This document shows positions 1,896 to 61,690 of a stretch of DNA of 64,000 nt, piece by piece. Location: contig CM057147.1 in assembly GCA_029964075.1 (NCBI GenBank), forward strand, positions 11,863,513 to 11,927,512. The letters run 5' to 3'. The notes under the pieces are model-generated. The model worked only from the letters and a program-made list of their open reading frames with translations. It ran no database searches and had not been told where the DNA came from. Source of the stretch: Patiria pectinifera (Eukaryota > Echinodermata > Asteroidea > Valvatida > Asterinidae). A program made the position numbers and the translations under genes. Position 1 is the stretch's first letter. Each line of letters begins with the position of its first letter.

Positions 1896-1940
1896 CGTCT
1901 AATAAGGGCCTAATTTTGACAAACTTACCTTATGCAATAT

Positions 1941-2252: not shown

Positions 2253-2939
2253 TTTTTCAACATGGCTGCACGCCTACCGCCGGTAACGTTAGGATTCATT
2301 TCGTTACAATATAATGTGTATAGCCTAGGCCTACATACATACATGGCCCTAGCCTAGGCATAAAGCAATCAAGTTATCAACTAAATGTGCCAAAAAGTAA
2401 ACTTACTGTTTATATCCACGTCGATCCATGTCCAAAAGTCACTCATAAGTCTGTCCTATGGGTTTTATCTTCAGGGAAAACGCTCCACTTTAGCATCTTT
2501 AGTGGCCATCGAGGCAGACATTTTCACTAAATTGCAGCGCACGCCGTAATCTATGTGTGTGAGCACCACATGTTGTCACTTGTGGGGCACCAGTATTGTG
2601 CCAACAAAAGAGGGCGCTATACTGTGTATGAACATGTAACTAGCACAGCTAATCTAGCCTTATTCTAGTGCCAAAATAACAACACGTTCACAAGACCGCC
2701 TTAAGGGGTATCACTTTTTTTTTATTTCTAGAGGTCATTCAAGGTCAGTGAAGAAAACTGAGAGAATATCTTTATGGGGTACTGATTTTGTACCCCACAA
2801 AGGCATTGTACCCCATATGGGTATGATGGAGTTGACAAGGTACCCCATATCTAGCCCTGCGTGAGAGCATTTCAGGCAACCAGAATAAAGAAACAGCAAG
2901 AAGTGTGTTATAAATATAGATCTATAGGACTTTAAAATA

Positions 2940-5674: not shown

Positions 5675-5883
5675 CTCATGAACTTCGACCCCATGACCTT
5701 CAATCTCCTCCAGCAGTTCACATGTGAAGTCCCGATAGTCGTAGTTGATACTCAGACATTTGATTTCTGGGAGGGCCAGGCAGTCCCGTGCACAGAAGTT
5801 GGGATTGCGATGGATGATGGTCGACGTTGGCTTGGAGATGAGGCGGCCTTTCTTGGCAGCGGTGAAGTAGTGAAAGTCATTGA
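5675..5883 (-). CDS. PAN/apple-like domain exon (last confident exon)
   Basis: Encodes about 70 residues: NDFHYFTAAKKGRLISKP, IHRNPNFCARDCLALPEIKC, LSINYDYRDFTCELLEEIEG and HGVEVHE. The Cys pattern CxxxC, then C six residues on, then NYDYRDFTCEL, matches PAN/apple domains, which bind proteins or carbohydrates. Phase 1 to phase 0. Reading through the donor stays open for 34 further codons to a stop at 5570, so this could also be the terminal exon; a PAN domain would normally continue further. Confidence 0.82.
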
Positions 5884-8800
5884 CTGTTTCAGGTAATAAG
5901 GGTACGTTAATTTGAGAAGTGAGTAAAGTGTACAATGAAATTTACTTTTCAGAAACTCTTCACAAGGACTCTGTTTTCTGCTGGATTTGATAACACTAAG
6001 ATGCAACAGTGGCTCAAACACTACTGTTACCATTTCCCTGCATTTTTTTCAAACATTGCTCTTTGTAAATTATTCTCATTGGTATGCCATCGTATCTTCT
6101 AATTTTCAAGGAATGACCACGGCACAATTGCCTTCTCCCCCCATTTCAATTTCAAAAAGCACAAAACCTATTTCAAAGAAGTTGGTTAGCATCATAAATT
6201 AATGCAGAAGGAAAGAAGTAACTCTTCCAGATTCTGCTTACTTGAATCTCCAAGGTTCTGCCTCTCAGTGATATTTATGGTATTCCATGGCACAATCTGA
6301 TCGCCCCAGATTTCAGGGCCGAACCCGACGCCTTCCTTCTGCATCAAGATGACGGAGTCATCATACACCACGGCCGATGCGCGGAGAATGTACGGGTGAC
6401 TGGTGGAGGTGAAGTCTGGTGTGATGCGACCCGTCGGCAAGGTGATGTCAAAGGTCGGCAGGCTGCAGGTAGCTGTGGAAGTGCCTCCTCCGTTGTTCAT
6501 GGCATAAACAGTGAAGTAAAGAGGATGTCCTCCTAGAAGAATCTAAAGACAGAAAAACAATCATTCAGCAAAATGTTCAAATTTGAATGCCCCTAAAAAT
6601 CTACACGTTTAAGTTGTATTAGTAAACGCAATAAACAACAAAGCAATAAGGACTAAAAATTGAAAATTTTTCAAGTTAATTTTATACTCTTTCTTACTTT
6701 CATTATTTATACTTTCATTATTTGTTTTCCTGAGGGCAATAGGAGACAATAGAAAATTGCCATAGGAAACACAACAGTGTCCAACAAATATTTTATGGCA
6801 TAGCTGTCATTTGTCATGTAGGGGTGTGTAATTCTATTATCGCCTTATCCCCCAGAGGGCGCCCTTGCGTCTTACTGTGTTGCATCATTCCTTTTCCCAA
6901 TCAACTGGAACAGACTAGGCCTCGACCTGGATGGCTCTTGGTGAGAAAATCTCTCATAAAATACTCTCCGAGGAGATCTTGGTGGACATCTATATATACC
7001 ATGAAAGCATGCTCATTGTGGAGCAAGAAAATATATTTTATGGCTTGGGTAGAAACCAATTTACATGTATGGCAGATTTTAGCTTGTAATTTTGAGTCAT
7101 GACCGTCACAATTCATCGTGTTTGAGTGCACATGATTTTGCGTGTGGCATACACGTTGCTGTTTGGCAGTTGTGCACGCATTGCATTGGCTCGGCTGGGT
7201 GGGTGAAATTGATAATTTGTAATACATTTTCCTAACTGCTCGACCGTGGGGTTTGTGCTGTGCCTCACGAAAGGTTTTTTTAGGCAAAGTTTTCTGTTTC
7301 GTATACAGCATAAACAGGGCACATAATAGTACATCAGGCATGGGCTGCTAGACTACATGTACACCGGCCATGGGACACAATTTGTCCTGAAACCCTCCAG
7401 CGCTGGGTGAGTGTTGTCAGGCGGACCTGTTATTATTTTGTGAGATACATGTAAATTTAAGTTTAAACTGTGGCTCACTTTAAATAGTGTACTTTAGGCC
7501 CCCCCCCCCCCAAAAATGGTGCCCGACTAAACTTTTTTTTTTTGCCTTATCCATAATGTGATTGTATTCATAAAATGCATGCGAGGGATATATCCATGAA
7601 CTAGTTTTTAAATAATGAAAGGTTTGCGGAAACACCATGTGCGAATAATTTCTCAACTATGAGAATGGTTCTGAAAAGAACCAGAGGTATAAACTCGACG
7701 TTCCGGTCAGTATGCTCTGACCGTCTTCAGGAGAGTGCCTAAACTCTAAGAAAGTGAATACTTAAAAAAGCAAAAGGCGAAGTCAATGAAGTGAAAAGTT
7801 GCATCCTGTGAGGATGCCAAGTAGACAGGATCCTAGAACAAGCTTGGTGCCCACTGAAGTGGAACAGTAGGGTTGCAGTGTCAGTAGAGGGGGGACCTAG
7901 GGTATAGGAGACCCATCAGTCTAAGGTGGTAGCTGAGGACCTAGGGTCCTCAGACTGATGGGTCTCCTATACCGAGATTTTTCCTTGGTGTTTTCCATAC
8001 ACATATGTCGTTGAATTAGTCACTGTTGCATGTTGGTCGACTTTGTATCCAATCTCACTTTGACGTTGGATTTGTAGTTCTTCACAAAGTTCTTTCGTAA
8101 TTCTTCGCAATACGTTTTTTGGACGTCCAAATGTGTTTTAGAAGCATTTTGAGTAAGTTTTTTAATATAACTTTTTTTTCTCAGAATCACTCGGGACAAC
8201 ACAAATACATCGGTGAAGGGCAAAATCTAATACTGAACTTACATCATCTCATTACAATTTAATATCTTATGAATAATTTGGTTGTGGTACCCACTGCTAT
8301 ATCAGATTTGAACCAGCCAGCCGACCCCTGCAGCAAGCTGAGTGGTTAGACGTCTGGCAGTGGCGTACGCAGGATTTTTTCAAGGGGGGTATTTCAAAAT
8401 TGGATGTCATCATTTATGACGCTAGAAATGAAGATGGTAAATTGTGTTGGCGCCAGAAATAAAAGATAGTATCAGTGGGCTAAACTTAACGCTAAAATAA
8501 AAGTCGGGAGTTTGTGTTGGCGCCAGAAATAAAAGAGGGTATATTTGTACGGGTTAAACTCGAAGGGCCGGGAACCCACGACCATCAGTTATCTTTTTGA
8601 GCTAAAGCATAGTAAATCGAAAAAAAAAAACATGTTCTGTTTCTTTAGAGTATATGATGAACATAAGAGTAAAGGGGTCAATGTGGGCAGTCCCCTCCCT
8701 CAACAGGATTTTAACAAACAACAATGAAGAAATTCAAGAGAAAACTAGGGCTGCGGAAGTGCTAGGATCTGTTCTTGTAATTGGCTAAAATTACTCAGCT

Positions 8801-11800
8801 TCGTCCCCTGGATCTCATGATTCTCATCCGTTGGGAATCTTTGTGTAAACCGCCCCCACCCCCCAAGGCCAAACTCCAGACACAGGATACATATGCGCTC
8901 TGGTCACAGGGGCGGATTCAGACTGCCATTTGCCTGGGGGTGGGCCTAGAATTGTAATGAAGGGTCCAGGGAAATTTTGGATCGTAGATGCTCTGTGGTG
9001 CAATCTGAGGCGTTTCCTGGCCACTTTCCCATGATTTTTTTTAGCAGAAGTTTTTAAAAATATGAGGGGATATTTTGTTTCATTTGTTTCAAATACATAT
9101 AGGCCTATATACTCTTGCTCTTATAAAGTGTCTTCTGTATTCAAAGCTTAAAGTTGAGAACATGCACATAATTGGTAATTGTTCCGCGCTCGGTCACATA
9201 ACTCTCTTTTCCCTCCATATTTTTACATGGCAAAGGGGGGTGTTTGACAGCCAAAACACCCCCCTGCGTACGCGCCTGACGTCTGCACTAAAGCAGGAGG
9301 TCGTGGGTTGGAATCCCACCCAAGTGATTTTTTTTCTCACAATACACTTGGGACAACACTGAGAACAAAACCATGCAGGGCAAAACCTAAAATTGAATTT
9401 AAACCACCCCTACACAAATTCCAATTTATGAATAATATAACATCAATTCATAAAGTGTACTACATGTACTTTACAATCTAGACTACAAAATTGAGCAGAT
9501 GACAAATTAATAATAGAAATTAAGCATCCCTACTCGCAGCTGAGAAGCTGAATTGCAAAGGACGCGGCTACAACGTGATCGAGCCGGAGGCATGTAAAGG
9601 CGCCTTTGGCAGCCAGCCACATCGACCCATATACGACCACGGAGCACAGCCTGAGATTGAAAGTGTTTGATTTTTCCGAAGGGCGGAAAACCGGATCGAG
9701 GGCCCGGAGAAAAACCCTCGTGGCACAAAAGAGAACCAACGCACAACTCTACATACATATGGTCCGCATCCGGGAATCGGGGTCACAATGGTGAGAGGGG
9801 AGTGCTTTATGCACTAGCCACTCATGCCACCAAATAGTGAATGTAGTTGAGGCGAAAGTGTACTGTTTTACAATCCAGACTATAACATCAAGTAGATGAC
9901 AAATATTGAATGAGATGACAAATCGCAAATGATCTCAAAATAACATATTCTTACACCATTACTACACATAAAACAATTCCCAGACATGTCTCCCTCAATA
10001 AACCAAGATTTCAGACCTTGGGCAAAAACTTTTTTTGTCCTACTGTAGTTCTTACTTGTGAAATGATAGCTGAGGGTCCACCAAATTCTGTCTTAGAGAC
10101 CACATCACTGCCTCCAGGTGCTGTCCCAACCTGATAGAAGAACTTCACCAAGCTCTTGTCATCAAAAGCTACCATCTCCAGCTGGAAGGCTGGCTCTGTG
10201 TAGTCTAGTCCAGGAACCTGCTCAACACCACACAAGTTAGTGATTGCTGCACTCCTACTGGATCCAGCGGCATCCTTCATGGGACAAAAATTTTAAAGCA
10301 ACTTTACTGAGTTTTGCTATAGAGGAGAATGAGCTTGGAAGGAATAAATTAAATACAGAGATGTAAGTGAACTCTGACTTTTTCACAGATATTTATGTAC
10401 ACATATATTTGGTGCCTAATAATAGACCTTTATCAGGGTACGCCAGGTTGAAAATCAAAGCGAAGCAAATAACACAAACAAACATGGCAGCATAAATAAA
10501 GTGTGCAGTGAAAGAGTGACTCTCGCAAAGTTACAGCAGATTGACAATTTTATAAATGGATGGTAGCTCAAATTCCCTCGAAACATCAAAGTGAATTCTA
10601 GGTAGGTCATGTCTTATTGCATTTTAGAATATAAAGCCTAAAACAGCAGCCAAACTGAAGTTTCCGACTAGTAAACTACAAATTAGTTCAACTAATAGAC
10701 GGGTGTCTCGAAGGCCCGTATCATTTTGCATGTAAACGAGTTGGGGTACAGTGCTCGACCGTTGAGAAATGTCTTCATGTTCGTATCAGGCTCCAGTTCC
10801 TCTTAATTATTTCTGGGAAATGACAGGTCCTGTGTGAATGACAATTCACGGATAGCCTTGTAATGTAAGTAGTTCATACCAAATAAATGCCACGGATGGA
10901 AATGTGAAAACAGAAAGTCTGAAGTTTGAGGGCGGTGCTGCAGCGTTAACTACAATTGAGTACTACACGGAAACTTCAGTTCAGCCACTGTTTTAGGCTT
11001 TTATATTCTACTATCCCGATGCAGCGTAGTATAAACGAGTCCTGTTTATTACGTCACAATTTACTATGTTTTGTTTGCTGCCCCCAACGACGACTTTTAC
11101 ACAAATTGCACTTTCGGGTCGATACAGGACATGACAGACACAATAGTCGTTTTCATTTCATCACACCTTAGGCTACATATACCCGAAAAATGACGGAAAT
11201 GTCTTCCAGCATTCCACAACCTCTTTAAAAATACAATGAGACATGACCTACGTAGAATACGGATAATAAACTGTTTGACACTGGATGTAGAATTTTTAAT
11301 CATGATGCGTAAAAATAAACTGATTTGAATTGAATTGGATTGAAATTGAATTGGATTGGATTGATGCTTAGAGGGAATTTGAACTCTCCATCCATTTACA
11401 AGATTTTCAATCTGCTGTTACTTTGCGAGAATCACTCGTTCACCACACACTATTTACACCGCCATGTTTGTTTGAGTTATTTGCCTCACTATTATTTTCA
11501 AGATGGCGTACCCTGATAAAGGTCCACTTACAGCCCTGTAAGTACTTGGAATTACTTTGAACTTATACTTTGAATTTTTAATACTTGGAATGTAATCACA
11601 AAGCTTCAAACAAATGATACGGGAACAAAGATGTTATCGTTTGAAGGAGAATCAGAGAAACCAGGAACAGTTAGAATGTTTCAAGAGAGATACCATTGTT
11701 TCAAGAGAGCCATGGATGTACAAACTGGAACAAACAGCACATGGAAACAGTCTGGGAAAGCCTGATGTTCCCAAAAATTTCTGTGTAAACACGTTTATTT

Positions 11801-53800: not shown

Positions 53801-56800
53801 TCGATAGATTTTGGTATCATATTTCTTCTAAAAAGATTCTCCATCCATTGGTACAGGTGGTTTGAGTCTCAATCGAGTGGAAGTACGACGTTCCAGGGGT
53901 TTTTTTTGGCGGGGGTACCAACATGTATATACTTTATTTGGTTGACTTGGTTAAACATCAAAGGTTTCAAAGATAGTCAAGTATAATCCCTATTTTATCC
54001 GGACAGCTGTCAGCTTCTACAAAAGTTCTGATCATTACACCAAAGGGCCCAATTTCATGGTAAGGCTTACCACAGATATTCTGCAAAGAAATTCTCTGAC
54101 TCCGTGGGAATCCTTAGATACAGGGTGCATGTATGCACACAAGCCAAAATTCCTTGACACGTGAAATATGTTAACCGGTAGGTACCCCAGAATATTCTGC
54201 TACAGTTATCAAGAATTCTTACAGTTAGCAGACCTACAACAGGTCCAAGAAGTATACATTTCAGTTGGCAAAGTGTCATTTCAATCTAAAGGTGCACCCA
54301 GGCCTTGTATTTGGGGACAGCCGACCAGGTCATGACAAATTGGAAAAGTAGGAAAGGAGGGGTGGAGGGGGGAGGGTGTGGATCTGATGTGATACTAGGG
54401 GTGTTGCTCATGATATTTTAGCCCCCCCCCCCTTTAATTTAGCCCTTTTTCTGTTTGTTTTTGAAAGACACTCTATCCTCCTTTGGTGTTCCAGTGCATC
54501 AATCTCACCTGTAGGTTGAGTTTTGTCAGTACCAGCTGGATAGCTGCCTGTCCCACATTGTCTCCCAGCTCCTTCAGGAAACCTTTGACCGAGCCATCCC
54601 CAGGCAAAGCCAGGGAGAGGTTAGCATTGCACAAAGGTATTGGGATTCTCTGGTCTGCCATGATGGGGAAGTCTGTAGCGATGCCATCGATGAGGAGAGA
54701 GAAGGCCAGATCCACTTCATACTCCTTGGTGGCATCAAGCTTGTCAATGGAAAACCTGGACAAAATGAATCCAATTTGTACTTATTTGTCAGAATTCTTT
54801 AAATTCCACTGTTAAAATTGACTGAAAACACAAAGCGGTCAAGATTTTGTCCTCAGTATACATGGTGTCACAACAACAATCAGTCTCAGGAAACAAAACC
54901 AAATTGCAAAAAAAAAGGGTTGGGTGGGGGCAGGGATTTGAATCAAGGTACATTGTACCTGAATTTACCTCATCAAACACTCCAACTTTCTGAACAGGAA
55001 GAACACTGTTTGAGGTCATACAAACTACCAGTACAAACTTTAACCCTTAACATAGTGTTTTTATGCAATGTTATAAAGAGGATGTCAACTATGGTGTCAG
55101 TGAGGGTATTAACTTCTTCTCTACAATTATCATTCTGGTGTTAAATTTGGTCTTTCGATTTCTTTTTGCTAGTTTATTGGCTTAGATGTCACAGTTATGA
55201 AAACATTCACAGAGCTCAGAGAAAATCACCAGTTGTAATTTAGTTTGGAAATATATTCTTATGCATATAAACTCACCTGACACTCAGGGCATCTCCAATC
55301 ATGAAACGTTCCATCATTCCCCACTCGTAAGAAAACAGCGAGACATTGAAGAACCACAACTCTAGCCCGACAGACAGCGTATAGTCACAGGGGTCAATGA
55401 TGAACCAGGCCTTGGAGCTGATCTGAGTCACCTTCAAGTCTAGATTCAGACAGCAATGGAGACTTGTGCAACGACTGCTGATGTAACAGGACAAGTTGGG
55501 AAGGCTGTCAGGAATCTGCACAGGGCAACCTGAAACAGGAATTTAAAATCTGGGAGTTAAACAAGAGTACTCATGCAAATGTAAAAGTATACATTGGAAG
55601 GTTTTAACCAGGAAAACTGTAAATTGCACTAGGTGAACACCTCAAAAACAGGATTTACTGCGGCTGTTGTTACATGTAAGTCCTTGCAAGTCATCATCAG
55701 CCAATCACAAGTGGTTTGAACAACGTTGAGATGACTGCCGCGCCAGACCAAAAAACTCCTCACAAAGTAAAAACAAATCAAATTTGATGGTTGGAATGTT
55801 TTTTATCAGTCTGTAGTTTTTTATACTTATTCTTCCAGTTGAGCATTTTATACGAGGATTCAAGTGCGGGAAATAAAAACCTGTCAGGTAACTAGAACAA
55901 ATTAAATGAGTAATTTAGGTTATATAAGTTCAGCATAATATAATTCCTTTTGTAAAAATATTTGTCTTGTTAATGTCTTACATTTAGATTATTTATGTCC
56001 TGCTTTGCCTATTTACTAATGTAGGTGTGTGTGTTCTCAGGTTTGTGTACACAAAGTTAATGTAGCCTATGATTTCCACATTTTCATGCCTTAAATTTGT
56101 ACTTGATCTTTTTATTTGTCAAGCCAATGTTTCAGTAGTAATTAAGCTATATGCCCTACCGATAGTTCAAGTCGCCAACTGGTTCAGCAAGTCATTGCCA
56201 GTCTGAGATATTTGAGAGAAACACACTTTTTTGTTATCTTTTTAGAACAATATTTAACCTTGATTAATCTAGAGTCAAGAAATTTGTTGTGGAAAGTATT
56301 ATACGATTGTACAAGTTCTTATTTAGATGTCTAATTGAGTGTTTCTATGTTCTGTTATCAAAATTTTATTCACACCTGTATGCTTGCAAATAAATGCAAG
56401 AATAAGTTAAATTAGAAGATTTTTGACTTGAGCTGTACGTATAAATTTGTGGTTGCTCTTCCCGTTCGCACCATGAAGTCATCATCAGTCACTCACAAGT
56501 CATCATCAGTCATTCACAAGTCATCATCAGTCACTCACAAGTCAATCATCAGTAAATCACAATGCGATCATCAGTCAATCGCAAGTCAATCATCAGTAAA
56601 TCAAAAGTCAATCACAAGTCAATCATCCGTTAATCACACATCATCATCAGTCAATCAAAAGTCAATCATCAGTCAATCATCAGTCAATCACAAGTCAATT
56701 ATCAGTCAATTATCAGTCAATCAAAAGTCAATCACAAGTCAATCATACATTCACAAGTAAATCATACGTCAATCACAAGTCAATCATCAGTCACTCACAA

Positions 56801-59800
56801 GTCAATCACAAGTCAATCATACAATCACAAGTAAATCATACGTCAATCACAAGTCAATCATCAGTCAATCACAAGTCAATCATCAGTCAATCACATGTCA
56901 TCAATCACAATTCAATCATCAGTCAGTCACTAGCTACTCATAGTAGGAAAGCCATTCCTTTGCCTTTTAGATTGACCCGTCTACAGGTCTGTAATTATGG
57001 AGGTGTGTCATTTACTTCAATTTTTGAATAATACTGGTACTTGCAATGACAAGTACAGTACTGAATTCAGGTTTTGTTTGAATTGACTATTATTTCCAAT
57101 GGCTGTGGCTATTCATTATTTTGCACCAATGGAAAAAGTAGAAGCTGAAACCATAAAATATAAGTTCAGACATTAAGGAGGCTTTGGCATGGGAAAACTA
57201 TGGCAAAAATGTCCATTGACTACTTTAGGGGTATCTTTCTGTCAGAGTTTTTCAAAATTAACCCCAACAGTCCTGAATTCTCCAACTCTAATATGAATTG
57301 TCACACACCCTAGGGGTTTACTCACGACCCTCAGAAAACGTTTGTCGAAGTCTTTCTATTGCATTACAACATGTCAGTACTTACTGTCACTACCAACCGG
57401 GAGTGCTGCAGGAAGAGAACAGGTATCTCTGGACAGGAAGTTCTAGATGAAAATGATGGGAAAAACAGTTAAATCTACTCACATCCATGATGTATTAATA
57501 CCATTGAGAATTCAATGTTAACATATTTGGTGAACTACATTCTTCTATTTTCAATACAGTCTGTATTCGTTCAGCTATGTTAAGGTTTCTTGTGTATACT
57601 TGGCACATTTCCTCTCACTTCTTTAAATAAAATTGGAACAGATATTGTGGGAGACAAAGGTGTTCATTTTTAAGTTCTCACAAATGCTAAAAGCCTTTAG
57701 TTTACTAGCCTAGGGACGGTACCGGTAGTCAGTTCTTTTCAGGATTGTTTTCAGCACTATTAATTGAAAGAACTTAGGTTTACAAGAAATAGCTGGAACT
57801 GATATATCTCAATACATTAAGGATGAGCATGTGTATTGAAATTGGAGCACAATTTGTTTGTCTAAAGCATTCACTTTAGCAGTGACAAGAGAGAGAGTAA
57901 GAGAACAAAGAAGACAAACTAACACAAATGTGTGAATGTGTTTAGTATGGACTCTGTGCACAAGTACCCTTAGACAATACAAAGACACAGTTGCAAGGCA
58001 TCACTGGGATGGACTCTTGAACATATTTATGGTACCTGATGCTCAAGTGAAGATGTTACAGGTTTGCACAATATGCCATACACGGGCACGCAACTTTTAA
58101 CTAACAAATGAGGAAACTCCACTCCTTATGGGACTTTGTAGAATGTTTTTCCAAATTTAATAGCATAAATGTGAAGTGAAAAGTGAGGAAATCGGCTGAT
58201 TCGAGGAAAGATTGCAGGCATGCCTACAGACCAGTAAACTTACTGGTGAGTCACTTCAATTGATACTCATGTGAAGATGCTATACGTTTGTGTGCTTCCA
58301 TGAATCATGAGTGGTGTGTCCCTCAAATTGATGCTCATTGTTACAATAGGTTTTTGTACTTCCATAATATCTATACCGGTACATGCGCAAACCGTGAGTG
58401 GTGTGTCCTTCCATAGAGCAAGGACCCAAGGAGTCAGAACTCTTGGGCGATTTACATTTTGACCATTAACATACCAATCCCTCGGGAATGTCTATAGCTA
58501 CAGCACTGTGACCGCAAGCCTCGACCATTCAAAGCGTGAATGCCAGTGGCCTTTGAATACGATAATCGTCGCCACCTTTTCAGTTGGTAACCAACAACCT
58601 CCCTATATGCTGCATAATAAGTCATGTCACATCGCTGCTCTTTTTTGAAAAATATATTTTACGACAAGATAGGTTTTTACAACTGCGCAGTTGTTAGATG
58701 CGAGTTATGAACTCAAGTTAGCAATGTGCAGTTGTTGGTGCTTAAAAGCGTTATCTGCATGTCCCTGTAATTTGGAGATAAATTGGATTTCTTTCAGATA
58801 AGTTTTCATGTATTTTCAGACATTTTAATTGGCAATATATCATTGATGAAATGTGTTTTTTTGGAAAATTTCACAAGTTTTCACACTAAAGGTACAGAGC
58901 ATTTTGTTCTTCATGAATGATTGTTCCAGTGATGTTGACCACATTTATATACAGTATCATCCAACTGCGAACAAACACTTCAAAATCATTCATTTTTAAT
59001 GTATGACAACTGCGCATGCATATTTACCATGGTACTGTCTACGAAGCCATGCAAACTCCTTTTCTGGCATTAGTGAGCGCGGATCTCTATTGTGTCGAGA
59101 TTAGCGTAGTGAGCAACTGAGCAAGCTGGCCGCCAGGGGCTTTCTATTGTAGCTTTCGAGCGCGGCGACCATCATTTTACTTTTGAAGTCTGGGAAGACG
59201 AACTCCTTGGGTCCTTGCTCTATGGTCCTTCCCACTGCACTGATGCTCATGTAAAGATGCTAGGTTTGTGTACTAGGCTTGCAAAATATGTCATACATGC
59301 ACAAACCATGAGTGGTGTGTCCCTCGATCCCACTGATGCTCATGTGAAGATGCTATATGTTTCTGTACTTCCATAATCATGATAATATGCCATACATGCA
59401 CAAACCATGAGTGGTGTGTCCCTCCCACTGATGTACTTGCATAATATGTTATACATGAACAAACCATGAATGGTGTGCCCCTCCCACCGATGCTCATGTG
59501 AAGATGCTATAGGTTTGTGTACTTGCATAATCTGCTATACATGTACAAACCATGAGTGGTGTGTCCCTCCCACTGATCATGCTCATGTGAAGATGCTACA
59601 CATGTACCGGTAGGTTTGTGTACTTGCATAATATGCCATACATACTTAAACCATGAGTGGTGTGTTACTTCCACTGGGACTTTTATCAGTGGCTATGAAG
59701 ATGAAGTGCCAATACTGTTCATACAAGGCATTGATAAATCACTAACAGACCAATACTTGTAGGTCAGACATCTCACCTTCAGACCCAAATAGTCTAGTAC

Positions 59801-61690
59801 CAAGTCTACAGCTGCATCAGTGACGTGGCCCGCTAAGCTATCCAGGTAGCCAGAGATGGTACCATCCCCAGGCAGGGTGAAGGTAGCATTGGGATTGCAG
59901 ATTGGTATGGGTATATGAGCTGCCTGCAGCAGGTGGATGGGTCGACAGGTGCCGTCTATGCACAGGGTTACTGACAGGTCAATCAGGAACTCCTTCTGCT
60001 CACTGAGCTTGTCAACATTATATCTGAACCAAAAAAACCAAGATTTCCAAAAACAATTAGGGAAATTATAATGTCCTGGTTCCTTCTGGTTTTCAAAGAT
60101 TAAAAATACCATTCTTAATTTCTTCCAAATACATGCAAGGGCATTAACACATTTTCCAGTATTAAAATTCTGACAATTTGCATTCCAAGATAGTTTCTAA
60201 TAATAAGCTGGCATAACAGAATATGAAACAAACAAGCCTTGAATTTTTAAGTTTCAATAAGTCTCAAGCTCTAGATATCTTGACAATGAGGCAAATCATT
60301 TCCAGCAATTGACAACCTCTTTAATGAGTATCTATGTTTACAATTAATATAAACAGGGATGTTAAGTTAATGTACACTGTGTCTTTGGAGTTTCATCACT
60401 CCTTCACTGTAAAACAAAGAAAATCTCCAAGACTGTGGTGTATCCAGCGGGGAGGTGAGGGGGGGGGGAGATTGGGGCAAGGGACATGAAAAGAAAGCAC
60501 CAGCATCTTACAACTGAGAGCGACACCTTCCCCTTTTTTTTATCACTTTTACGAATGAAAAAATAAACATAAAAATTTGGCAACTTTTTTACCAAACAAT
60601 TACCAATGTTGGTCCCCTCCCCTGCAGTGCCAATACATGCATATGCTACTGTGTATCAAATCCTACTTTAAATTTTCTTCCAGTGACTTTAGGATTGGAA
60701 TCCTCATGTGCATATATACTCACTCTATACGCACAGAATCACTGATATCCAGCACCTTATCCACTCCCAAGTCGTATTCAAAGAGCGTCAGATTCTTAGA
60801 CCAGGACCCCAGCCCGACAGACAGCTGGAATTCACAGGGGTCTAGGAGGGCGTAAGCGGTGGTGGACAGCTGAGTGAAAATCAGGTCAAGGGAGGCACAG
60901 CATGTCAGGTCCAGGCAGCGGTCATCCACTGTGCAGGTCAACAGGCTGGATGGAGGTGGTGGCCTTAAGAGCGGACATTCTGACAACGAATTTTTTGTAC
61001 AGGTTGCAAATTACAGAACATCTCTGCTGATGCATTAATGTAAGAGATTATTAGGGGAATAAACGTGTGCTTAGCCGGTTTTAAAAATTATGTTTGACAC
61101 CGGCGGGAATCTGGATGATTGATAATTATCTGAGCCTCAGGCAAGGGTAATTATCATTATCCAGACTCCAACTGGTCTTAAACATAGTGTTTAATACCAG
61201 CCAAGCACATTTTATTCCGATTCATAAATACCTTTTCGATAAAAAAAAACAACATTTGTCACTGGTAGTATTGCGCATGCCTACGTGAGGATTGTGAATG
61301 TTCAACCAATAAAACGGTAAAAGGCACCAAATTTCAAAGGAGTCCAAATTTCACGTAACACTAGTTAAAAGTGTTGTTTAATCATCCTTTGAAGACCGAC
61401 CACGTGATGGGCTCTCGACCAATAGGTATGGGTAAACTGTCTTAGGTATTTATGATTGTACATTACTTTTAACAGCTACAAGTAGTCTTATACCTTAAAG
61501 AAATCAGGCACTTTAATTTTCCAAAACTGGTAATATTAGATGTAGGTATGTGACAATTTGAAAATTATATAATATAATTAAATGCATATAAAAGTAATGA
61601 AACAGGGGTAATTATTATTTTACAAGGTCACTTACTGTTTTCACTTGGTGCAAGTATCTCCATGTCACATTGCTGGTTCCAAACATATCT
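5675..61690 (-). CDS. large modular cysteine-rich extracellular protein gene, 37 visible exons, 5' and 3' incomplete
   Basis: Seen: 37 minus-strand exons with canonical splice sites (one GC donor) sum to 6,183 nt, exactly 2,061 codons, and every exon-exon phase agrees. Visible residues 1-1449 are eight tandem modules of about 180-190 residues, each with about ten Cys. The beta part carries CC and DPC, a LSVGFExW-like strand, an NxT/S-LF strand and a SYxWG strand. The gamma part carries CIDGxC, IPIPxCNPN and LPGDGTVxGFL. Residues about 1440-1542 hold two furin-type sites. Residues 1543-2061 are non-repetitive and end in a PAN/apple-like domain. Inference: a secreted or surface glycoprotein, given the even Cys count, recurrent N-glycosylation sequons and furin sites. 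No signal peptide or transmembrane segment is in the visible part, so the true N-terminus is upstream of 61690 and the C-terminus lies below 5675. I cannot assign a name or a reaction. Each exon is listed separately. Confidence 0.85.
6242..6542 (-). CDS. C-terminal region exon, beta-sandwich-like
   Basis: Encodes about 100 residues: ILLGGHPLYFTVYAMNNGGG, TSTATCSLPTFDITLPTGR, TSTSHPYILRASAVVYDDS, VGFGPEIWGDQIVPWNTI, and TERQNLGDS. The VYAMNNGG strand followed by TATC resembles the last strands of an FN3-like repeat (inference). Phase 0 to phase 1. Confidence 0.85.
7893..7976. repeat. hairpin, ~28-bp stem
   Basis: GGTATAGGAGACCCATCAGT and its inverse ACTGATGGGTCTCCTATACC enclose CTGAGGACCTAGGGTCCTCAG, itself palindromic. 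Function unknown. Confidence 0.75.
8180..8280 (+). repeat. SINE tail fragment
   Basis: CACTCGGGACAACACAAATA, CATCGGTGAAGGGCAAAATC and TTATGAATAATTTGG match the 3' tail of the neighbouring SINE at 9330-9437. The head is missing or diverged. Confidence 0.65.
8330..9437 (+). repeat. tRNA-derived SINE, split by the hAT-like insertion
   Basis: The 5' part (8330-8357, CTGAGTGGTTAGACGTCTGG) rejoins at 9279 with ACGTCTGCACTAAAGCAGG, then a B-box-like GGTTGGAATCCC, then the tail with GGGACAACACTGAGAAC and GGGCAAAACC. It matches the SINE at 4152-4290 on the other strand. Confidence 0.8.
8358..9278. mobile_element. 921-bp nonautonomous hAT-like element inserted in a SINE
   Basis: Termini CAGTGGCGTACGCAGG and CCTGCGTACGCGCCTG, flanked by ACGTCTGG (8350-8357) and ACGTCTGC (9279-9286), a 7/8 match to an 8-bp target duplication. 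The surrounding sequence is one split SINE. It has no transposase frame. Confidence 0.85.
9525..9835 (-). repeat. tRNA-derived SINE, second family
   Basis: On the minus strand the head reads GTGGCTAGTGCATAAAGCAC, CATTGTGACCCCGATTCCCG, followed by a body with GGTTCTCTTTTGTGCCACGA, GGGTTTTTCTCCGGGCCC and TCCGGTTTTCCGCCC. B-box-like GACCCCGATTCCC. The body differs from the first SINE family. Confidence 0.6.
10056..10274 (-). CDS. C-terminal region exon, beta-sandwich-like
   Basis: Encodes exactly 73 codons: DAAGSSRSAAITNLCGVEQV, PGLDYTEPAFQLEMVAFDD, LVKFFYQVGTAPGGSDVVS, and the end GGPSAIISQ. Phase 0 at both ends, acceptor CATGAAG, donor CAA|GTAAGAAC. The strand pattern resembles an extracellular Ig/FN3-like fold (inference). 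Confidence 0.83.
10425..11524. repeat. ~1.1-kb fold-back element
   Basis: Ends GACCTTTATCAGGGTACGCC and GGCGTACCCTGATAAAGGTC, with homology over about 150 bp or more. A second inner inverted pair (AGCCTAAAACAGCAGCC near 10640 and GGCTTTTATATTC near 11000) is off-centre, suggesting an insertion in the right arm. No coding region seen. Confidence 0.8.
12270..12477 (-). CDS. C-terminal region exon
   Basis: Encodes about 69 residues: LKMDIDMIPLIIRLRGLVTL, KIPFFGKKTLFETDIWRY, SPAIHRNIFDIHTKDPDT, and EIEAYSTPV. It closes the hydrophobic beta-rich segment and leads into a Pro/acidic linker. The donor GTG|GTATTA was chosen because it restores phase 0 with the next exon. Confidence 0.78.
12745..12899 (-). 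CDS. C-terminal region exon
   Basis: Encodes about 52 residues: AGITPMVGAYAQAGVSVGFI, LYGELQLIADMLHTSFPTV, AEILFSKFPLDVG. Hydrophobic and glycine-rich, with no Cys. Phase 0 to phase 2. Acceptor CTCATAG, donor GG|GTAAGTGG. Confidence 0.82.
13603..13673 (-). CDS. C-terminal region exon
   Basis: A 71-nt exon encoding IEAGGFFDMEIPLSVAFVSM and KAQ. It continues the GGFIYVGFS strand of the preceding exon. Phase 1 to phase 0. Acceptor TGTTTCAG, donor CAG|GTAGTA. Confidence 0.8.
13895..14165. repeat. ~140-bp direct duplication
   Basis: Two copies of TTGACCTTTCGGCCCCAAA, GGCTTCTTAGGATTAACAAG, AACAATCC...AAACCA and AGTATTTCTCAAGTT, starting at about 13900 and 14045. Dispersed repeat of the GACCTTGACCTTTGACC type. 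Confidence 0.8.
14335..14497 (-). CDS. C-terminal region exon, start of hydrophobic beta-rich segment
   Basis: Encodes about 54 residues: IEEFIDVIINGKADDNFKQF, DVVLRGRIPFPRRQARFL, RAGWGMLVGGFIYVGF. Alternating hydrophobic residues suggest beta strands rather than a transmembrane helix. Phase 0 to phase 1, donor T|GTAAGTAC. Confidence 0.8.
14777..14916 (-). CDS. C-terminal region exon
   Basis: Encodes about 46 residues: KGLDALGGRIANMTIGELEA, MLDLQNIDPLTLVQLMKELR, VLYRTF. A leucine-rich amphipathic helical segment with one sequon (NMT). Phase 1 to phase 0, donor TTT|GTAAGT. Confidence 0.8.
15335..15535. repeat. ~200-bp inverted-repeat element
   Basis: GTAAACACCAGCAATCATGG near 15339 and its inverse CCGTGATTGCCGGTGTTCAC near 15510 enclose about 150 bp. 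MITE-like; target duplication not clear. Confidence 0.5.
15721..17539. repeat. 1.8-kb fold-back element with internal AGGTCA-rich tandem repeats, TA flanks
   Basis: Inverted ends GTGGGGCTGTT / AACAGCCCCAC flanked by TA on both sides. Each arm has about three ~230-bp repeats with TGACCTCTGGTGACC, AGAGGTCAATGAAC. The centre near 16620-16690 is non-repeated. Consistent with a Tc1/mariner-type nonautonomous element; no transposase. Confidence 0.82.
17916..18005 (-). CDS. C-terminal region exon
   Basis: A 90-nt exon encoding GASLFDLILSPGADSGTW, then QGDVIIGGGLT. Phase 1 to phase 1. Acceptor TTTGTTTCAG, donor C|GTATGTAC. It follows directly after the second furin-type site, so it would form the new N-terminus after cleavage. 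Function not recognised. Confidence 0.78.
18920..19039 (-). CDS. linker exon with second furin-type site
   Basis: Encodes about 40 residues: IAESGTASRRSMGLLIFGD, EDETPVTRRRRRDLSLSVTT. The RRRRR-D run is a strong proprotein convertase motif, about 85 residues after the RRKRR motif. Phase 1 to phase 1, acceptor TGTTACAG, donor G|GTAATGC. Confidence 0.82.
20980..21938. mobile_element. 959-bp nonautonomous hAT-like element with subterminal GAGTCC repeats
   Basis: Termini CAGTGTTGTAGTCGAG and its inverse, flanked by a perfect 8-bp duplication GCTTCCAC (20972-20979 and 21939-21946). An 8-bp target duplication and CAG...CTG ends are hAT hallmarks. Both ends carry arrays of GAGTCC/GGACTC hexamers. 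It has no transposase frame. Confidence 0.88.
22899..23059 (-). CDS. linker exon (post-module, acidic)
   Basis: Encodes about 54 residues: ESAEGMDSMEDLTANAIDKA, RAYFKTILNGNSTSFS, then KLQPEKAVKP. It has no Cys and one sequon (NST). It is predicted to be soluble and partly helical, between the two furin-type sites. Phase 2 to phase 1. Confidence 0.8.
23778..23960 (-). CDS. M8 gamma-like exon ending in a furin-type site
   Basis: Encodes about 61 residues: YDVERPHSTIYDVDLDISL, CWPGAC, EPIVILRDAIF, then SECADQGGGSS and TRRKRRSVDD. The CxxxxC pair aligns with CIDGxC. IPIPxCNPN and LPGDG are replaced by a linker ending in RRKRR, a furin-type cleavage motif. Phase 2 to phase 2, donor CT|GTGAGT. Confidence 0.83.
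24095..24608. repeat. ~510-bp palindromic MITE, TA flanked
   Basis: Inverted ends TACAGGGTGAGT / ACTCACCCTGTA with arms matching through most of their length (CCCACGGATCACAAA near 24290 with TTTGTGTGATCCGTGG near 24390). Tc1/mariner-like ends. No coding sequence. Confidence 0.82.
25355..25670 (+). mobile_element. CR1/L2-like LINE, 3' ORF part, 5' piece of a nested pair
   Basis: The plus strand gives LDFCNSMLYHLPRNQLARL, RSLQTSAACIVTLAPSRAHI and TPILQSLHCLHVANGVKYKL. This is the typical reverse-transcriptase C-terminus of CR1/L2 elements. The homologous continuation is at 28130-28420. Confidence 0.75.
25690..28100 (-). mobile_element. degraded CR1/Jockey-like non-LTR retrotransposon (endonuclease end and RT)
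   Basis: Reading down from 28100: end of endonuclease (ILDLVLTTHTYLNENC, HLMVCFTINF), then SLDIKKATGPDTIPARLLKQ, PSDWSVTNISPIF, then RT motifs DAIVLDFSKAFDHVPHQRLL and GTVLGPLIFLTFINDLLP, then a C-terminal YLGLTFSTYMAWSKDMNKI, LVRPHLGYSSQAWSPY. Several frameshifts and the missing YADD-like motif show it is dead. It lies inside another LINE fragment. Confidence 0.85.
28130..28420 (+). mobile_element. CR1/L2-like LINE, C-terminal end (continuation of 25355-25670)
   Basis: Translation gives SYNPPRCLRSSNNSLLVVPH, then a shifted frame with the LWNNLPLIIPNLSSVSQFKV-like end of CR1/L2 ORF2. A short duplication of CCTGGGGAGATCTTTATCT is present. Together with 25355-25670 it brackets the minus-strand LINE. 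Confidence 0.65.
29172..29211 (-). CDS. M8 beta second part, micro-exon
   Basis: A 40-nt exon, phase 1 to phase 2, encoding HSFEKNLGVLKI between the split codons. Its phases fit exactly between the M8 beta and gamma exons. Acceptor CTCCCCAG, donor CAG|GTAAGG. It is too short to be certain from sequence alone. Confidence 0.68.
29706..29918 (-). CDS. M8 beta exon
   Basis: Encodes about 71 residues: CSFLAVPSAVAPFC, SRDQSCLGVGCC, LNFDLGIVQRSFSVW, LDPCARTFSFGFEKW, then VETIAIQVLQ. Six Cys. The donor A|GTAAGA follows CTGCAG. The N-x-T and SYxWG strands are absent, so beta is shortened. Confidence 0.86.
30464..30580 (-). CDS. M7 gamma second part fused to M8 alpha, GC donor
   Basis: Encodes about 39 residues: DIGDYASGLVVNRLSVSADV, LLPRPCSGPPEQITPATT. 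The frame and phases (1 to 1) match the M4-M6 fused exons. The donor is ACAG|GCAAGT, a GC-AG intron with an otherwise perfect donor consensus. Confidence 0.82.
30939..31159 (-). CDS. M7 end of beta fused to gamma first part
   Basis: Encodes about 74 residues: YKWGKVTRERLSDAVLLTF (end of beta), TIDKTADNRNLLLSLSLQL, CIAGGC, IPFCNPNGTLEW and NLG. In M7 the beta-gamma intron is missing and a different intron splits beta. Phase 2 to phase 1, donor G|GTAAGTC. Confidence 0.86.
31324..31854. repeat. 530-bp MITE with TGTGTCGCCC termini
   Basis: Ends TGTGTCGCCC and GGGCGACACA. The interior carries GTCACTGCATCCA, TTGACCTTTGACC and AACATACGGACAGGCGGAC. Widespread repeat type; no coding sequence. Confidence 0.75.
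31868..32072 (-). CDS. M7 beta exon
   Basis: Encodes about 68 residues: CPHLPSLPTLPSGGVC, SDACLGVECC, LAVDLGIISRTLRAW, VEPCDFKLSIGFENW, the sequon NVT and the end LLR. Six Cys. It stops before the WG strand, which has moved into the next exon. Confidence 0.9.
33020..34436. mobile_element. 1,417-bp TIR element with subterminal AGGAGCG-type repeats
   Basis: Ends CAGTCCTTCATTT and its inverse, flanked by perfect 6-bp duplications AATGTG (33014-33019 and 34437-34442). Both ends hold inverted CGCTCTCCT/GAGGAGCG motifs. An internal ~70-bp tandem duplication (33765-33905) is present. hAT-like ends, but the 6-bp duplication is unusual for hAT; family uncertain. Confidence 0.75.
33765..33905. repeat. 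70-bp tandem duplication
   Basis: Two nearly identical copies of TTCATGAACACGAAAAATAC, GCAGACAAGAGAGATCAAGT, TCTGTGAATAAGCTTGCAAA, differing at a few bases. It lies inside the 33020-34436 element. Confidence 0.9.
34613..34744 (-). CDS. M6 gamma second part fused to M7 alpha
   Basis: Encodes about 44 residues: ITSISQLGSLDAGFEAV, AQALGLPSRL, VSASPCPPVIQPSQSG. It has the same position and phases as the fused exons of M4 and M5 but is strongly diverged. Acceptor CTGCTAG, donor G|GTAGGGG. Confidence 0.83.
35314..35474 (-). CDS. M6 gamma exon, first part
   Basis: Encodes about 53 residues: YTLELMDGEISMSLSIDA, CIHGQC, LPMCYPNGTISW, and KNLPG. Phase 2 to phase 1, donor G|GTAGGACT. Confidence 0.87.
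35955..36245 (+). mobile_element. CR1/L2-like LINE 3' end fragment
   Basis: The plus strand gives LRTTITTKSTIEKAFSTAGP, KEWNKISSHNRDSQSIHIFK and KLLKLFALTTSSS followed by a stop, an AAGCGCTTTGATCTTGTTAA tail and an ATT-rich microsatellite end. Matches CR1/L2 ORF2 ends. Confidence 0.7.
36373..36631 (-). CDS. M6 beta exon
   Basis: Encodes about 86 residues: CPSMQFPSNLTPLAHC, DTCFGIQCC, LDVNL, VVDPCLGQLTLQFGNW, and the end TIGNFVMLR. Six Cys; the SYxWG strand is degenerate (SHLDFD). Phase 1 to phase 2. The first part of this exon is duplicated about 140 bp upstream. Confidence 0.88.
36681..36768 (-). pseudogene. partial duplicate of the M6 beta exon start, with acceptor
   Basis: About 100 bp repeat the first third of the M6 beta exon together with its TTCCAG acceptor. 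Translation gives CPSMQLPSPLAHC, NNCFEIQCC and LDVNLG, then runs to a stop with no donor. It is probably an intronic exon-fragment duplication, not used, or at most a cryptic acceptor. Confidence 0.7.
37060..37300 (-). repeat. tRNA-derived SINE, third family
   Basis: On the minus strand it has an A-box-like TTAGCGTAGCGGTA and a B-box-like CGGGTTCGAATCACGCCTG, then GGATTGGGTTTTCAGTCCCT, ACCTGATTCTGTGGGTTTTC. The same body appears at 44490-44640 on the plus strand. Confidence 0.75.
37811..37948 (-). CDS. M5 gamma second part fused to M6 alpha
   Basis: Encodes about 46 residues: VDGFIQTISGQVIQGASLAL, SQLGIDPYFF, SSQPCLNPTGPQSYG. It is fused as in M4. The usual GDG is reduced to VDG. Acceptor CTCCAG, donor A|GTAGGTT. 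Confidence 0.85.
38400..38670. repeat. ~270-bp MITE-like repeat with AATAGGGCGAC motifs
   Basis: AATAGGGCGACAGATTTTGC at the left, CACCCTATTGGGGCGAA at the right, and internal GGCGACATTTTCACTGTCGCC hairpin. Exact ends not defined. Confidence 0.45.
38940..39091 (-). CDS. M5 gamma exon, first part
   Basis: Encodes about 51 residues: YSINKQNDTQEFEMSVMLEY, CIDGLC, IPIPVCNPG and the end YNLSG. The LPG of other modules is LSG here. Donor G|GTGAGTTT, phase 1. Confidence 0.88.
39327..39369 (-). CDS. M5 beta exon, short second part
   Basis: A 43-nt exon encoding KEMTVTIASGMNLR after the split glycine codon. It aligns with the VETVNIGNAVMLR end of the undivided M3 beta. Phase 1 to phase 2. The acceptor is TTTGTAG and the donor AG|GTAAGT. 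Confidence 0.82.
39694..39900 (-). CDS. M5 beta exon, main part
   Basis: Encodes about 69 residues: CVSSTSILGNC, GETCTELRCC, LELDLKIADVSATAW, FDPCDFTFSLGLEKW, and VFSYQWG. Six Cys. Unlike in other modules it ends early, at WG with a phase-1 donor G|GTAAGAGC; the end of beta is in the next 43-nt exon. Confidence 0.9.
40814..40945 (-). CDS. M4 gamma second part fused to M5 alpha
   Basis: Encodes about 44 residues: DGSVSGFLSYLGGNVG, then AIDAALRHLHLTGFL, TGNACSYHTQG. The junction with the previous exon rebuilds LPGDGSV. The gamma end and the next alpha linker share one exon, unlike in M1-M3. Phase 1 to phase 1. Confidence 0.88.
41103..43505. repeat. 57-bp minisatellite, about 40 units
   Basis: Units read GATGCCTTGCATTCACTAGA, TGGTGCTGTGAGACCACTAT, AGAGAGTCAGAGTGAAG with moderate divergence. 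The period of 57 is a multiple of three, which produces long repetitive open frames on both strands (ECKASFTLTLYS-like); these are not genes. Non-repeat sequence interrupts the array at about 43180-43385. It lies in the intron that splits M4 gamma. Confidence 0.9.
43829..43983 (-). CDS. M4 gamma exon, first part
   Basis: Encodes about 52 residues: WRVAKITEDKQFEIDLSLVL, then CVDGAC, LPIPLCNTQDTF, and TLPG. It is interrupted after LPG by a phase-1 intron that does not exist in M1-M3. The donor is G|GTACGTTT. The following intron holds the 57-bp minisatellite. Confidence 0.88.
44490..44640 (+). repeat. SINE of the third family, 5' degraded
   Basis: GGGGAGGCGCAGTGGTGCTC followed by GGATTGGGTTTTTCCATCCC, TACCTGATTCTGTAGGTTTC matches the body of the SINE at 37060-37300. 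The B box is lost. Confidence 0.65.
44712..46576. mobile_element. 1,865-bp nonautonomous hAT-like element with subterminal GAGGCC repeats
   Basis: Termini CAGTGTTGTAGTCGAGGCC and an inverse end ...CCAACACTG, flanked by TTGGTTTT (44704-44711) and TTGGTTTC (46577-46584), a 7/8 match. Both ends are arrays of GAGGCC/GGCCTC. It has the same terminus as the element at 20980 but a different hexamer. It has no transposase frame. Confidence 0.85.
47354..47609 (-). CDS. M4 beta exon
   Basis: Encodes about 85 residues: CPAIDVTQLP, LSCTVTDSCLGIRCC, ILDPCNFTLSVGFEKW, VTLFHYPLG, and the end NSVLTVR. Six Cys. The usual sequon is lost (SVT). It starts in phase 1 and ends in phase 2 (AG|GTATGAC). Its 5' boundary has seeded a tandem array in the upstream intron. 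Confidence 0.9.
47540..48125. repeat. tandem array of about 5 units (~125-140 bp) seeded by the M4 beta exon boundary
   Basis: The real exon 5' end and acceptor (near 47560-47640) is followed by four diverged copies near 47690, 47815, 47930 and 48060. Each keeps a GTCAGGNAGCTGGGTGACATC-like core, a decayed CAGCCTTGAAGAAAGAGAAT acceptor region, and a GACAGTGACAGT run with GGTGACATTGCATG. Confidence 0.75.
48509..48563 (-). CDS. M4 alpha exon
   Basis: A 55-nt exon, phase 0 to phase 1, encoding QYLQSVPCDRGTPGTLRS plus one base. It is the last alpha part that is a separate exon; later ones are fused to the end of the preceding gamma. The acceptor is ACTGCAG and the donor G|GTAAGTT. Confidence 0.78.
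48723..48950. repeat. ~230-bp MITE, hAT-like ends
   Basis: Starts CAGGGGCGGATCCAGG and ends near TAGATCCACCACTA, roughly inverted. Contains G-rich and T-rich runs. The target duplication is not convincing. Confidence 0.4.
49110..49565. repeat. ~455-bp TIR element (MITE) next to an exon
   Basis: Inverted ends TAATAAAGACTGGATAGCGG / CCGCTATCCAGTCTTTATA with TA at each edge. It ends about 37 bp from the donor of the M3 gamma exon. No coding sequence. Confidence 0.7.
49602..49851 (-). CDS. M3 gamma exon
   Basis: Encodes about 83 residues: YSIEKL, LSLTLCIDDTC, VPIPLCNTNATSFTLPGDG, then TVEGFKRELGGRIG and the end LEKFGLS. Undivided, phase 2 to phase 0. The donor AGT|GTGAGTG is about 37 bp from the end of a terminal-inverted-repeat element. 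Confidence 0.9.
50250..50505 (-). CDS. M3 beta exon
   Basis: Encodes about 85 residues: CPLISLP, VQCSIDDRCLGIQCC, a QVDPCNFQLYVAFENW strand, the sequon NIT, LFSYSWG, and the end NIGNAVMLR. Six Cys. It starts in phase 1 and ends in phase 2 (AG|GTGGGATT). It is close to the consensus of all beta exons. Confidence 0.9.
50690..51545. repeat. ~152-bp tandem array rich in TGACGTCA-like sites
   Basis: Four to five units carry CACATGTCATGTGATGACAT, CATCGTGACGTCA, CATCTTTAACACACCCCGGT, TTAGGTACATACC and CTGTAGGTCTGTAGATATTG. Units start about 152 bp apart (for example GATGAC at 50863, 51015 and 51168). It is followed by a 51545-51730 segment shared with the copy at 5205-5480. Confidence 0.85.
53118..53172 (-). 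CDS. M3 alpha exon
   Basis: A 55-nt exon in phase 0 to phase 1, encoding DTIIGTTCQLPSQKTTGI. It has the single Cys followed by LP, as in M2. The acceptor is TTCTCAG and the donor C|GTAAGTC. Confidence 0.78.
53513..53911. repeat. ~400-bp palindromic element
   Basis: AACGGCGTACTTCCACTACT near the left end pairs with CGAGTGGAAGTACGACGTTC near the right end, and CCGATTCGGTCC pairs with GGACCGAATCGA inside. A long imperfect hairpin with no coding sequence. Confidence 0.7.
54509..54755 (-). CDS. M2 gamma exon, lacking the Cys pair
   Basis: Encodes about 82 residues: FSIDKLDATKEYEVDLAF, then LLIDGIATD where other modules have CIDGxC, IPIPLCNAN, LPGDGSVKGFLKELGDNVG, and the end LTKLNLQ. Both cysteines of the CxxxxC pair are replaced (L and A) while the PxCN cysteine is kept. 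The frame and splice sites are intact, so it is probably functional. Confidence 0.9.
55277..55529 (-). CDS. M2 beta exon
   Basis: Encodes about 84 residues with the CP start, LSCYISSRCTSLHCC, LNLDLK, IIDPCDYTLSVGLELW, the sequon NVS, SYEWG, and the end ALSVR. It has six Cys. It starts in phase 1 and ends in phase 2 (AG|GTGAGTTT), the same pattern as M1, M3 and M4. Confidence 0.9.
56466..56940. repeat. 11-bp minisatellite (TCAATCACAAG / TCAATCATCAG)
   Basis: Two alternating 11-bp variants, TCAATCACAAG and TCAATCATCAG, with TCACTCACAAG and TCATCATCAG forms at the start. There are about 40 units in the M1/M2-side intron between the M2 alpha and beta exons. The open frame it creates is low complexity. 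Confidence 0.9.
57385..57442 (-). CDS. M2 alpha exon
   Basis: A 58-nt exon encoding NFLSRDTCSLPAALPVGSD. It starts in phase 0 and ends in phase 1, with acceptor TCATCTAG and donor A|GTAAGTACTG. It joins in frame to the CPVQIP start of the next beta exon. Confidence 0.82.
58010..59670. repeat. ~85-100-bp minisatellite, interrupted by a transposon
   Basis: Units contain TGATGCTCATGTGAAGATGC, TAGGTTTGTGTACTTGCATA, ATATGCCATACATGCACAAA, CCATGAGTGGTGTGTCCCTC. Copies occur at about 58030-58410 and 59230-59670. The gap between them is an insertion with inverted termini (separate entry). Confidence 0.82.
58411..59225. mobile_element. 815-bp nonautonomous TIR element with 5-bp target duplication
   Basis: Terminal inverted repeats CCATAGAGCAAGGACCCAAG and its complement, flanked on both sides by TCCTT (58406-58410 and 59226-59230). 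It lies inside the minisatellite. It has no transposase frame. Family not assigned. Confidence 0.82.
59777..60023 (-). CDS. M1 gamma exon
   Basis: Encodes about 82 residues: YNVDKL, a LSVTLCIDGTC strand, IPIPICNPNATF, LPGDGTISGYL, then an amphipathic helix-like segment ending DLVLDYLGLK. It starts in phase 2 and ends in phase 0 at AAG|GTGAGA. It is the clearest example of an undivided gamma exon, with all three gamma Cys present. Confidence 0.9.
60724..60979 (-). CDS. M1 beta exon
   Basis: Encodes about 85 residues. It starts with the CP pair, has a proline-rich stretch, then TCTVDDRCLDLTCC, a LLDPCEFQLSVGLGSW strand, the sequon NLT before LF, and ends VRI. It contains six Cys, as in every other beta exon. 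It starts in phase 1 and ends in phase 2 at GA|GTGAGT. The acceptor is CGTTGTCAG. Confidence 0.88.
61055..61218. repeat. ~165-bp hairpin (MITE-like)
   Basis: GGAATAAACGTGTGCTTAGC pairs with GCCAAGCACATTTTATTCC, and the arms continue inward through ATCTGGATGATTGATAATTA. Nearly the whole element can fold into one stem. Confidence 0.65.
61636..61690 (-). CDS. M1 alpha exon (linker with one Cys)
   Basis: First visible exon of the modular gene. It has an acceptor TTTTGCAG and a donor A|GTAAGTG, starts in phase 0 and ends in phase 1. It encodes about 18 residues starting RYVWNQQC, matching the FLSRDTC-type linkers of later modules. Because it starts in phase 0 like every alpha exon that follows a gamma exon, an earlier gamma exon should lie upstream; I do not find one before position 64000. 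Confidence 0.75.

Follow-up and report, generated by a model that had tools for sequence, protein, structure and literature searches.

A twelve-module cysteine-rich repeat gene with a PAN_1 domain, one of eleven paralogs in the sea star Patiria pectinifera

Giant modular extracellular matrix and coat proteins are a known class, and are the closest described counterparts of the gene analysed here. Likenesses to this class include tandem Cys-rich modules, a furin-type site, an adhesive-type domain and a multi-exon gene; the difference lies in the repeat unit, which matches none of Pfam's 24736 models credibly. Two smaller units also offer points of comparison: PAN is a binding fold, and SAP is normally an intracellular, nucleic-acid-binding motif. 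The gene was found in a 64,000-nucleotide stretch of P. pectinifera DNA (contig CM057147.1, positions 11,863,513 to 11,927,512), referred to as the window, in which a motif scan of all six frames placed the named motifs of the module on the minus strand only. On sequence evidence the genome is very probably that of a sea star, perhaps Patiria: a 24-residue query for the A chain of the P. pectinifera relaxin-like hormone matches at 24/24 residues on C2. According to a review, this A chain is 24 residues long, was purified from P. pectinifera and has valvatid orthologs. Sea stars have 22 chromosomes, with which contigs numbered up to C22 at coordinates above a million agree. A GFP search bearing on an amphioxus source gave no match, although no control genome matched either, and COX1 was not found in the assembly. 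As a giant modular protein, the predicted product is of a known kind; judged by sequence comparison, its repeat unit is without a name in the copies of Pfam, NCBIfam and PDB that were searched.

The exon set was assembled by reading from stop to stop, by comparing the sequence with two paralogous loci, A and B, and by running a simple script that chains exons; because this script demands phase consistency, the phase consistency of the resulting chain is no proof of joining. The full gene comprises twelve modules, named M0 to M11, of which M4 to M11 lie inside the window. The exons read there are as follows, in window positions:

60724..60979, minus strand, M4 beta exon (CP...CC...DPC)
59751..60023, minus strand, M4 fused gamma-alpha exon, donor approximate
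57385..57442, minus strand, short exon holding a single Cys, perhaps the tail of M4, moderate support
55277..55529, minus strand, M5 beta exon
54498..54755, minus strand, M5 gamma-alpha exon, without Cys 7 and Cys 8, donor approximate
50250..50505, minus strand, M6 beta exon
49602..49851, minus strand, M6 gamma-alpha exon
47354..47609, minus strand, M7 beta exon
43829..43983, minus strand, M7 gamma exon
40814..40945, minus strand, M7 alpha exon
39694..39900, minus strand, M8 beta exon
38924..39090, minus strand, M8 gamma exon, 5' boundary approximate
37800..38012, minus strand, M8 alpha exon
36373..36631, minus strand, M9 beta exon
35314..35474, minus strand, M9 gamma exon
34613..34744, minus strand, M9 alpha exon
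31868..32072, minus strand, M10 beta exon
30939..31159, minus strand, M10 gamma exon
30464..30580, minus strand, M10 alpha exon, GC donor
29706..29918, minus strand, M11 beta exon
23778..23949, minus strand, M11 gamma exon with the furin-type site RRKRR at its end; exon present in 11/11 paralogs, no stops
22899..23059, minus strand, exon following the furin-type site, either a degenerate alpha or a linker
18920..19061, minus strand, exon with a second basic run, RRRRR
17916..18080, minus strand, C-terminal region exon
14777..14916, minus strand, C-terminal region exon
14345..14497, minus strand, C-terminal region exon
12745..12899, minus strand, C-terminal region exon
12270..12477, minus strand, C-terminal region exon
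10017..10280, minus strand, C-terminal region exon, 5' boundary approximate
6242..6542, minus strand, C-terminal exon, one match per paralog in 11
5675..5883, minus strand, PAN_1 domain exon, donor GAG/GTAAAA, probably not the last

A sequence-only reading of this stretch had described eight module copies in register, over positions 5675–61690, and a total of 37 exons. Eight beta copies are indeed present on the minus strand of the window, as part of a whole-gene array of twelve; M0 to M3 lie upstream of the window (loci L009–L013) together with SAP motifs, and the gene therefore begins beyond 61690. Conserved coding sequence was traced as far as ~38 kb past the window end, and the first SAP exon lies ~31 kb past it; the upstream search located neither a signal peptide nor a clear first exon. 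The count of 37 exons was not reproduced: among 32 listed boundaries, 27 follow AG and 28 precede GT. At the 3' side, the exon ending at 5675 is followed by the splice donor GAG/GTAAAA, which probably implies at least one further 3' exon; none was found 3' of 5675. By this rough model, the encoded protein would be roughly 3,500–4,000 residues long.

Each module, ~185 residues long by the count of the sequence-only reading, is built from a beta, a gamma and an alpha part. The beta exon carries, in order, CP, two single Cys, CC and DPC, followed by a Trp and usually an SYxWG-like stretch; its six Cys, as first noticed in the unaided reading, are exon-encoded in each of the eight window copies, and Cys occupies five of the seven columns that are invariant among them. 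The gamma part carries a C-I-D-G-x-C-like stretch and then PIPxC, and its usual complement of three Cys was recovered in seven of the eight window copies, M5 having one. The alpha part consists of an LPGDGT-type turn and a helix, and the single Cys ascribed to it was seen after the helix where alpha has an exon of its own in M7 to M10. M3 to M6 have gamma and alpha fused in one exon; M2 and M7 to M10 have them on different exons. The recurrence of SYxWG, IPIPxCNPN and LPGDGTV was borne out, with the motifs degenerate in some copies.

In each of the window gene, A and B, profile searches recovered 12 beta exons with E < 1e-20, values that are partly circular. A single-copy M6 query, to which the other window beta copies are 28–44% identical, recovers all seven of them at E 3.5e-5 to 7.1e-18, and thus excludes chance without recourse to a profile. 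In the window gene, A and B alike, the M5 gamma part lacks Cys 7 as well as Cys 8, and three Cys are present in ten other gamma parts per gene; the M11 gamma, which the profile missed and which stands outside this count, has three Cys when read directly. The joint loss in M5 suggests that Cys 7 and Cys 8 are bonded to each other. NxS/T sites, possible points of N-glycosylation, occur in 35/36 module rows (beta plus gamma, some intron read-through included). The idea that beta and gamma are internal duplicates of each other was rejected (hhalign probability 0.1%, E 0.51). A structure model of gamma-alpha, made from the window letters, gave three strands and a 23-residue helix (residues 56–78; mean pLDDT 71.6, pTM 0.45). 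That of the beta exon gave six short strands (mean pLDDT 52.8, pTM 0.41) and is too poor to use, so that the module fold is not established; each module probably consists of a beta unit braced by disulfides, with one helix as its cap.

Searches for a named domain agreed with the initial impression that the module is no recognised one, yielding no credible match in Pfam, NCBIfam or PDB at the level of sequence. Seven beta/gamma frames, among nine window frames scanned, had no Pfam match at E up to 10, single-sequence Pfam scans being weak for short exons. Ten module rows gave a single match against Pfam (24736 models; E 0.19, one member) and a single match against NCBIfam (E 0.054, one member), neither of them credible. 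A profile of the ten rows returned 0 PDB matches at E up to 10. Literature searches with the module motif strings found none of them, and the parts seen of the literature on SAP plus PAN, on ARIS and on giant starfish proteins contained nothing describing this protein.

Turning to the region beyond the array, the sequence-only reading had placed a furin-cleaved linker and a PAN-like domain on the C-terminal side. The furin-type site RRKRR is present, inside the gamma exon of the last module rather than in a linker. Both RRKRR and RRRRR are kept in the three genes read (the window gene, A and B), RRKRR conforming to the furin substrate motif R-X-K/R-R; for the other eight paralogs, what was recovered is the exon of RRKRR, at 84–88% identity. 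The PAN-like domain proved to be a PAN_1 (PF00024) match of 27.8 bits, above the Pfam gathering cut-off of 21.4 (E 2.3e-06), spanning profile positions 6–54 of 76 within one exon. The likeness to PAN_1 thus consists of an exon (5675–5883) scoring above the Pfam cut-off, with one match in each of 11 paralogs; the difference is that there is one match only, on the C-terminal side, and none in the beta/gamma parts scanned. SAP-like motifs are placed before, and inside the start of, the module array. The first SAP exon, upstream of the window, scores 25.7 bits against SAP (PF02037; cut-off 23.9) when queried alone and drops to 21.6 bits, below the cut-off, inside a longer joined query; the second scores 17.5 bits, below the same cut-off of 23.9. 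Whereas SAP is familiar from intracellular nucleic-acid-binding proteins, here it stands beside Cys-rich, probably secreted modules. This pairing is odd, and would mean either that the motifs have another binding role outside the cell or that the protein's place has been misjudged.

The gene belongs to a family of 11 paralogs, six on C19 and five on C16, identified by pairing SAP and C-terminal exons, with SAP-to-C-terminal spans of about 40–121 kb. The M6 beta query gave 132 matches genome-wide, a lower bound like the other genome-search counts, all of them inside the 11 genes: 12 in each of nine genes, 13 in one (C16, 4.36–4.41 Mb, the extra one partial) and 11 in one (C16, 6.13–6.21 Mb). 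All but one of these (131/132) are stop-free, and the sole stop, in M8 of the window gene, falls outside the exon, past its splice donor. Of 100 matches to a gamma query, 99 belong to the family; the other is a lone gamma-like fragment (C19:12143750-12143878, in L032; 71% identity over 42 residues), a possible relic of a twelfth copy. Queries with the furin-site exon and the PAN exon each gave 11 matches, one per gene and without stops. The C-terminal exon query likewise gave 11 matches, one of which has an internal TAG (C16, 4.41 Mb); this paralog may be broken, or its exon may end early. The SAP exon query gave 15 matches, 11 strong and four weak neighbours of strong ones. Four of the five C16 paralogs show, ~40–60 bases after the first SAP-like match, another that is weaker and interrupted by stops, perhaps the decayed product of a tandem duplication. 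In 11/11 genes the four marker exons (SAP, furin-site, C-terminal and PAN) keep one order and one strand, with one main match apiece; this shared travel is indirect evidence that the exons are joined, and points to one long gene, as originally proposed from the letters.

A tree was built of 36 beta exons taken from three genes on C19; in it, all twelve module positions were monophyletic (12/12), with 11 label changes, the minimum possible. The modules thus cluster by position, and the array predates these three gene copies. The M6 query has 11 matches at 84–100% identity and the rest at ≤ 49%, match identities from which the C16 genes appear to share the positional plan. Across the beta and gamma-alpha parts, dN/dS is 0.247 against A (1550 codons) and 0.262 against B (1551 codons), with dS near 0.12, so that the array is constrained in the three genes compared. 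Locally, dN exceeds dS in the M8 gamma in both comparisons (0.103 versus 0.082), and slightly in the M7 gamma against B (0.033 versus 0.025).

From the modules, paralogs, architecture, constraint, PAN_1 match and basic sites observed, we put forward, with somewhat more confidence than doubt, that the window holds one of 11 paralogs for a secreted, furin-processed giant protein of matrix or coat type, composed of twelve modules and a C-terminal part with PAN_1. The chain is most likely secreted, a proposal with which the even number of Cys per typical module, the PAN domain and the furin-type site fit. A furin-type convertase would cut after the twelfth module, at RRKRR at the end of the M11 gamma exon, parting a twelve-module rod from the C-terminal PAN part. 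The twelve modules would then make up an extended rod outside the cell, as part of a matrix, coat, mucus or adhesive, and the PAN-bearing part would act in binding or assembly. A matrix, coat or adhesive role is our best guess, at about an even chance. The signal peptide that was not located counts against this reading, as do the SAP motifs, which fit secretion poorly.

Other explanations can be weighed against the same observations. Several neighbouring genes might be involved, with the SAP exons, the array and the PAN region not forming one protein, since exon joining is predicted from genomic DNA and the N-terminal and last exons were not located; the four marker exons nevertheless co-travel in all 11 paralogs, over 40–121 kb each, and we consider such a split very improbable. 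An unlikely but more serious prospect is that the module belongs to a known family but has diverged too far for profiles to detect it, such as a known beta-sandwich or DUF4773 (PF15998), given the weakness of single-sequence Pfam scans for short exons and the CC pair that the eye picks out in one first exon of a DUF4773 gene here. DUF4773, with 13 matches above cut-off on C1 and C17, resembles the module in being Cys-rich, in its adjacent Cys pair and in matches split over two DNA stretches. It was rejected as a parent family: it has no match in the 11 genes (C16 and C19) at E up to 10, is absent from the scans of ten module rows, and its second exon, the half that was compared, shows no profile likeness to the module (hhalign probability 0.1%). 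The absence of any PDB match for the module profile and of any credible Pfam match likewise argues against a known family. The DUF4773 clusters themselves (C1:20804333-20819634 and C17) include several equal scores, as in recent tandem copies.

A recognition or immune protein, of which the 11 copies would recognise a variety of microbial or non-self surfaces, each module being a binding unit, could account for the paralogs in two chromosomal groups, for a binding fold on the C-terminal side and for modules as diverged as the window beta copies are from M6; yet a paralog dN/dS of ~0.25 and a near-fixed module number are unlike diversifying recognition repertoires, and we think this rather improbable. 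There is also a slim chance that the protein belongs to the sea star's egg coat or gamete surface, for which a large repetitive chain with NxS/T in nearly every module row would be suitable, although the average constraint among paralogs is not rapid evolution, and the ARIS review, in the part seen, gives sugars rather than protein domains and provides no link to a known egg-jelly protein. On this evidence a matrix role cannot be told apart from an immune, egg-coat or carrier role.

For the favoured reading of a secreted, furin-processed matrix- or coat-type protein, the consequence would be a large, constrained echinoderm gene family whose main building block is nameless in the libraries searched. 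Some 130 beta exons of the genome would gain a label from a domain entry, and the retention of about twelve modules by all 11 paralogs suggests a role that depends on length or order. A bolder version, which we hold as a doubtful though real possibility, is that the module represents a novel alpha/beta disulfide fold of extracellular type and founds a domain family, with ~130 copies in 11 genes, and that SAP has been recruited into a secreted, furin-processed protein.

Several repeats and relics accompany the gene. No RNA families or tRNA were found in the window. A ~2.9 kb repeat with internal inverted arms (window 4–2869) has four nearly full copies on C20, C15, C21 and C8 at 98–99% identity and looks recently mobile. 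It carries an open frame with a hydrophobic end (1944–2273, minus strand), which was dismissed as a conserved membrane-anchor exon: the best E in paralog A is 0.037, and it sits in a multi-copy repeat. Broken retroelement frames (26040–28134; RVT_1, E 1.6e-11) occupy the intron between the M11 beta and gamma exons, and pieces that look by eye like reverse transcriptase lie in the M3–M4 intron (locus L009), ~0.1–2.2 kb past the window end. The intron between the M7 gamma and alpha exons holds a 57-base tandem array of 36 copies (41121–43177). A partial second M9 beta exon (36651–36767) lies upstream of the real one, and two partial beta copies are also found beside M9 in paralogs A and B; these are probable relics of exon duplication. 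Finally, a 123-base tandem repeat of 4.4 copies (47555–48109) has units that resemble a decayed start of the M7 beta exon.
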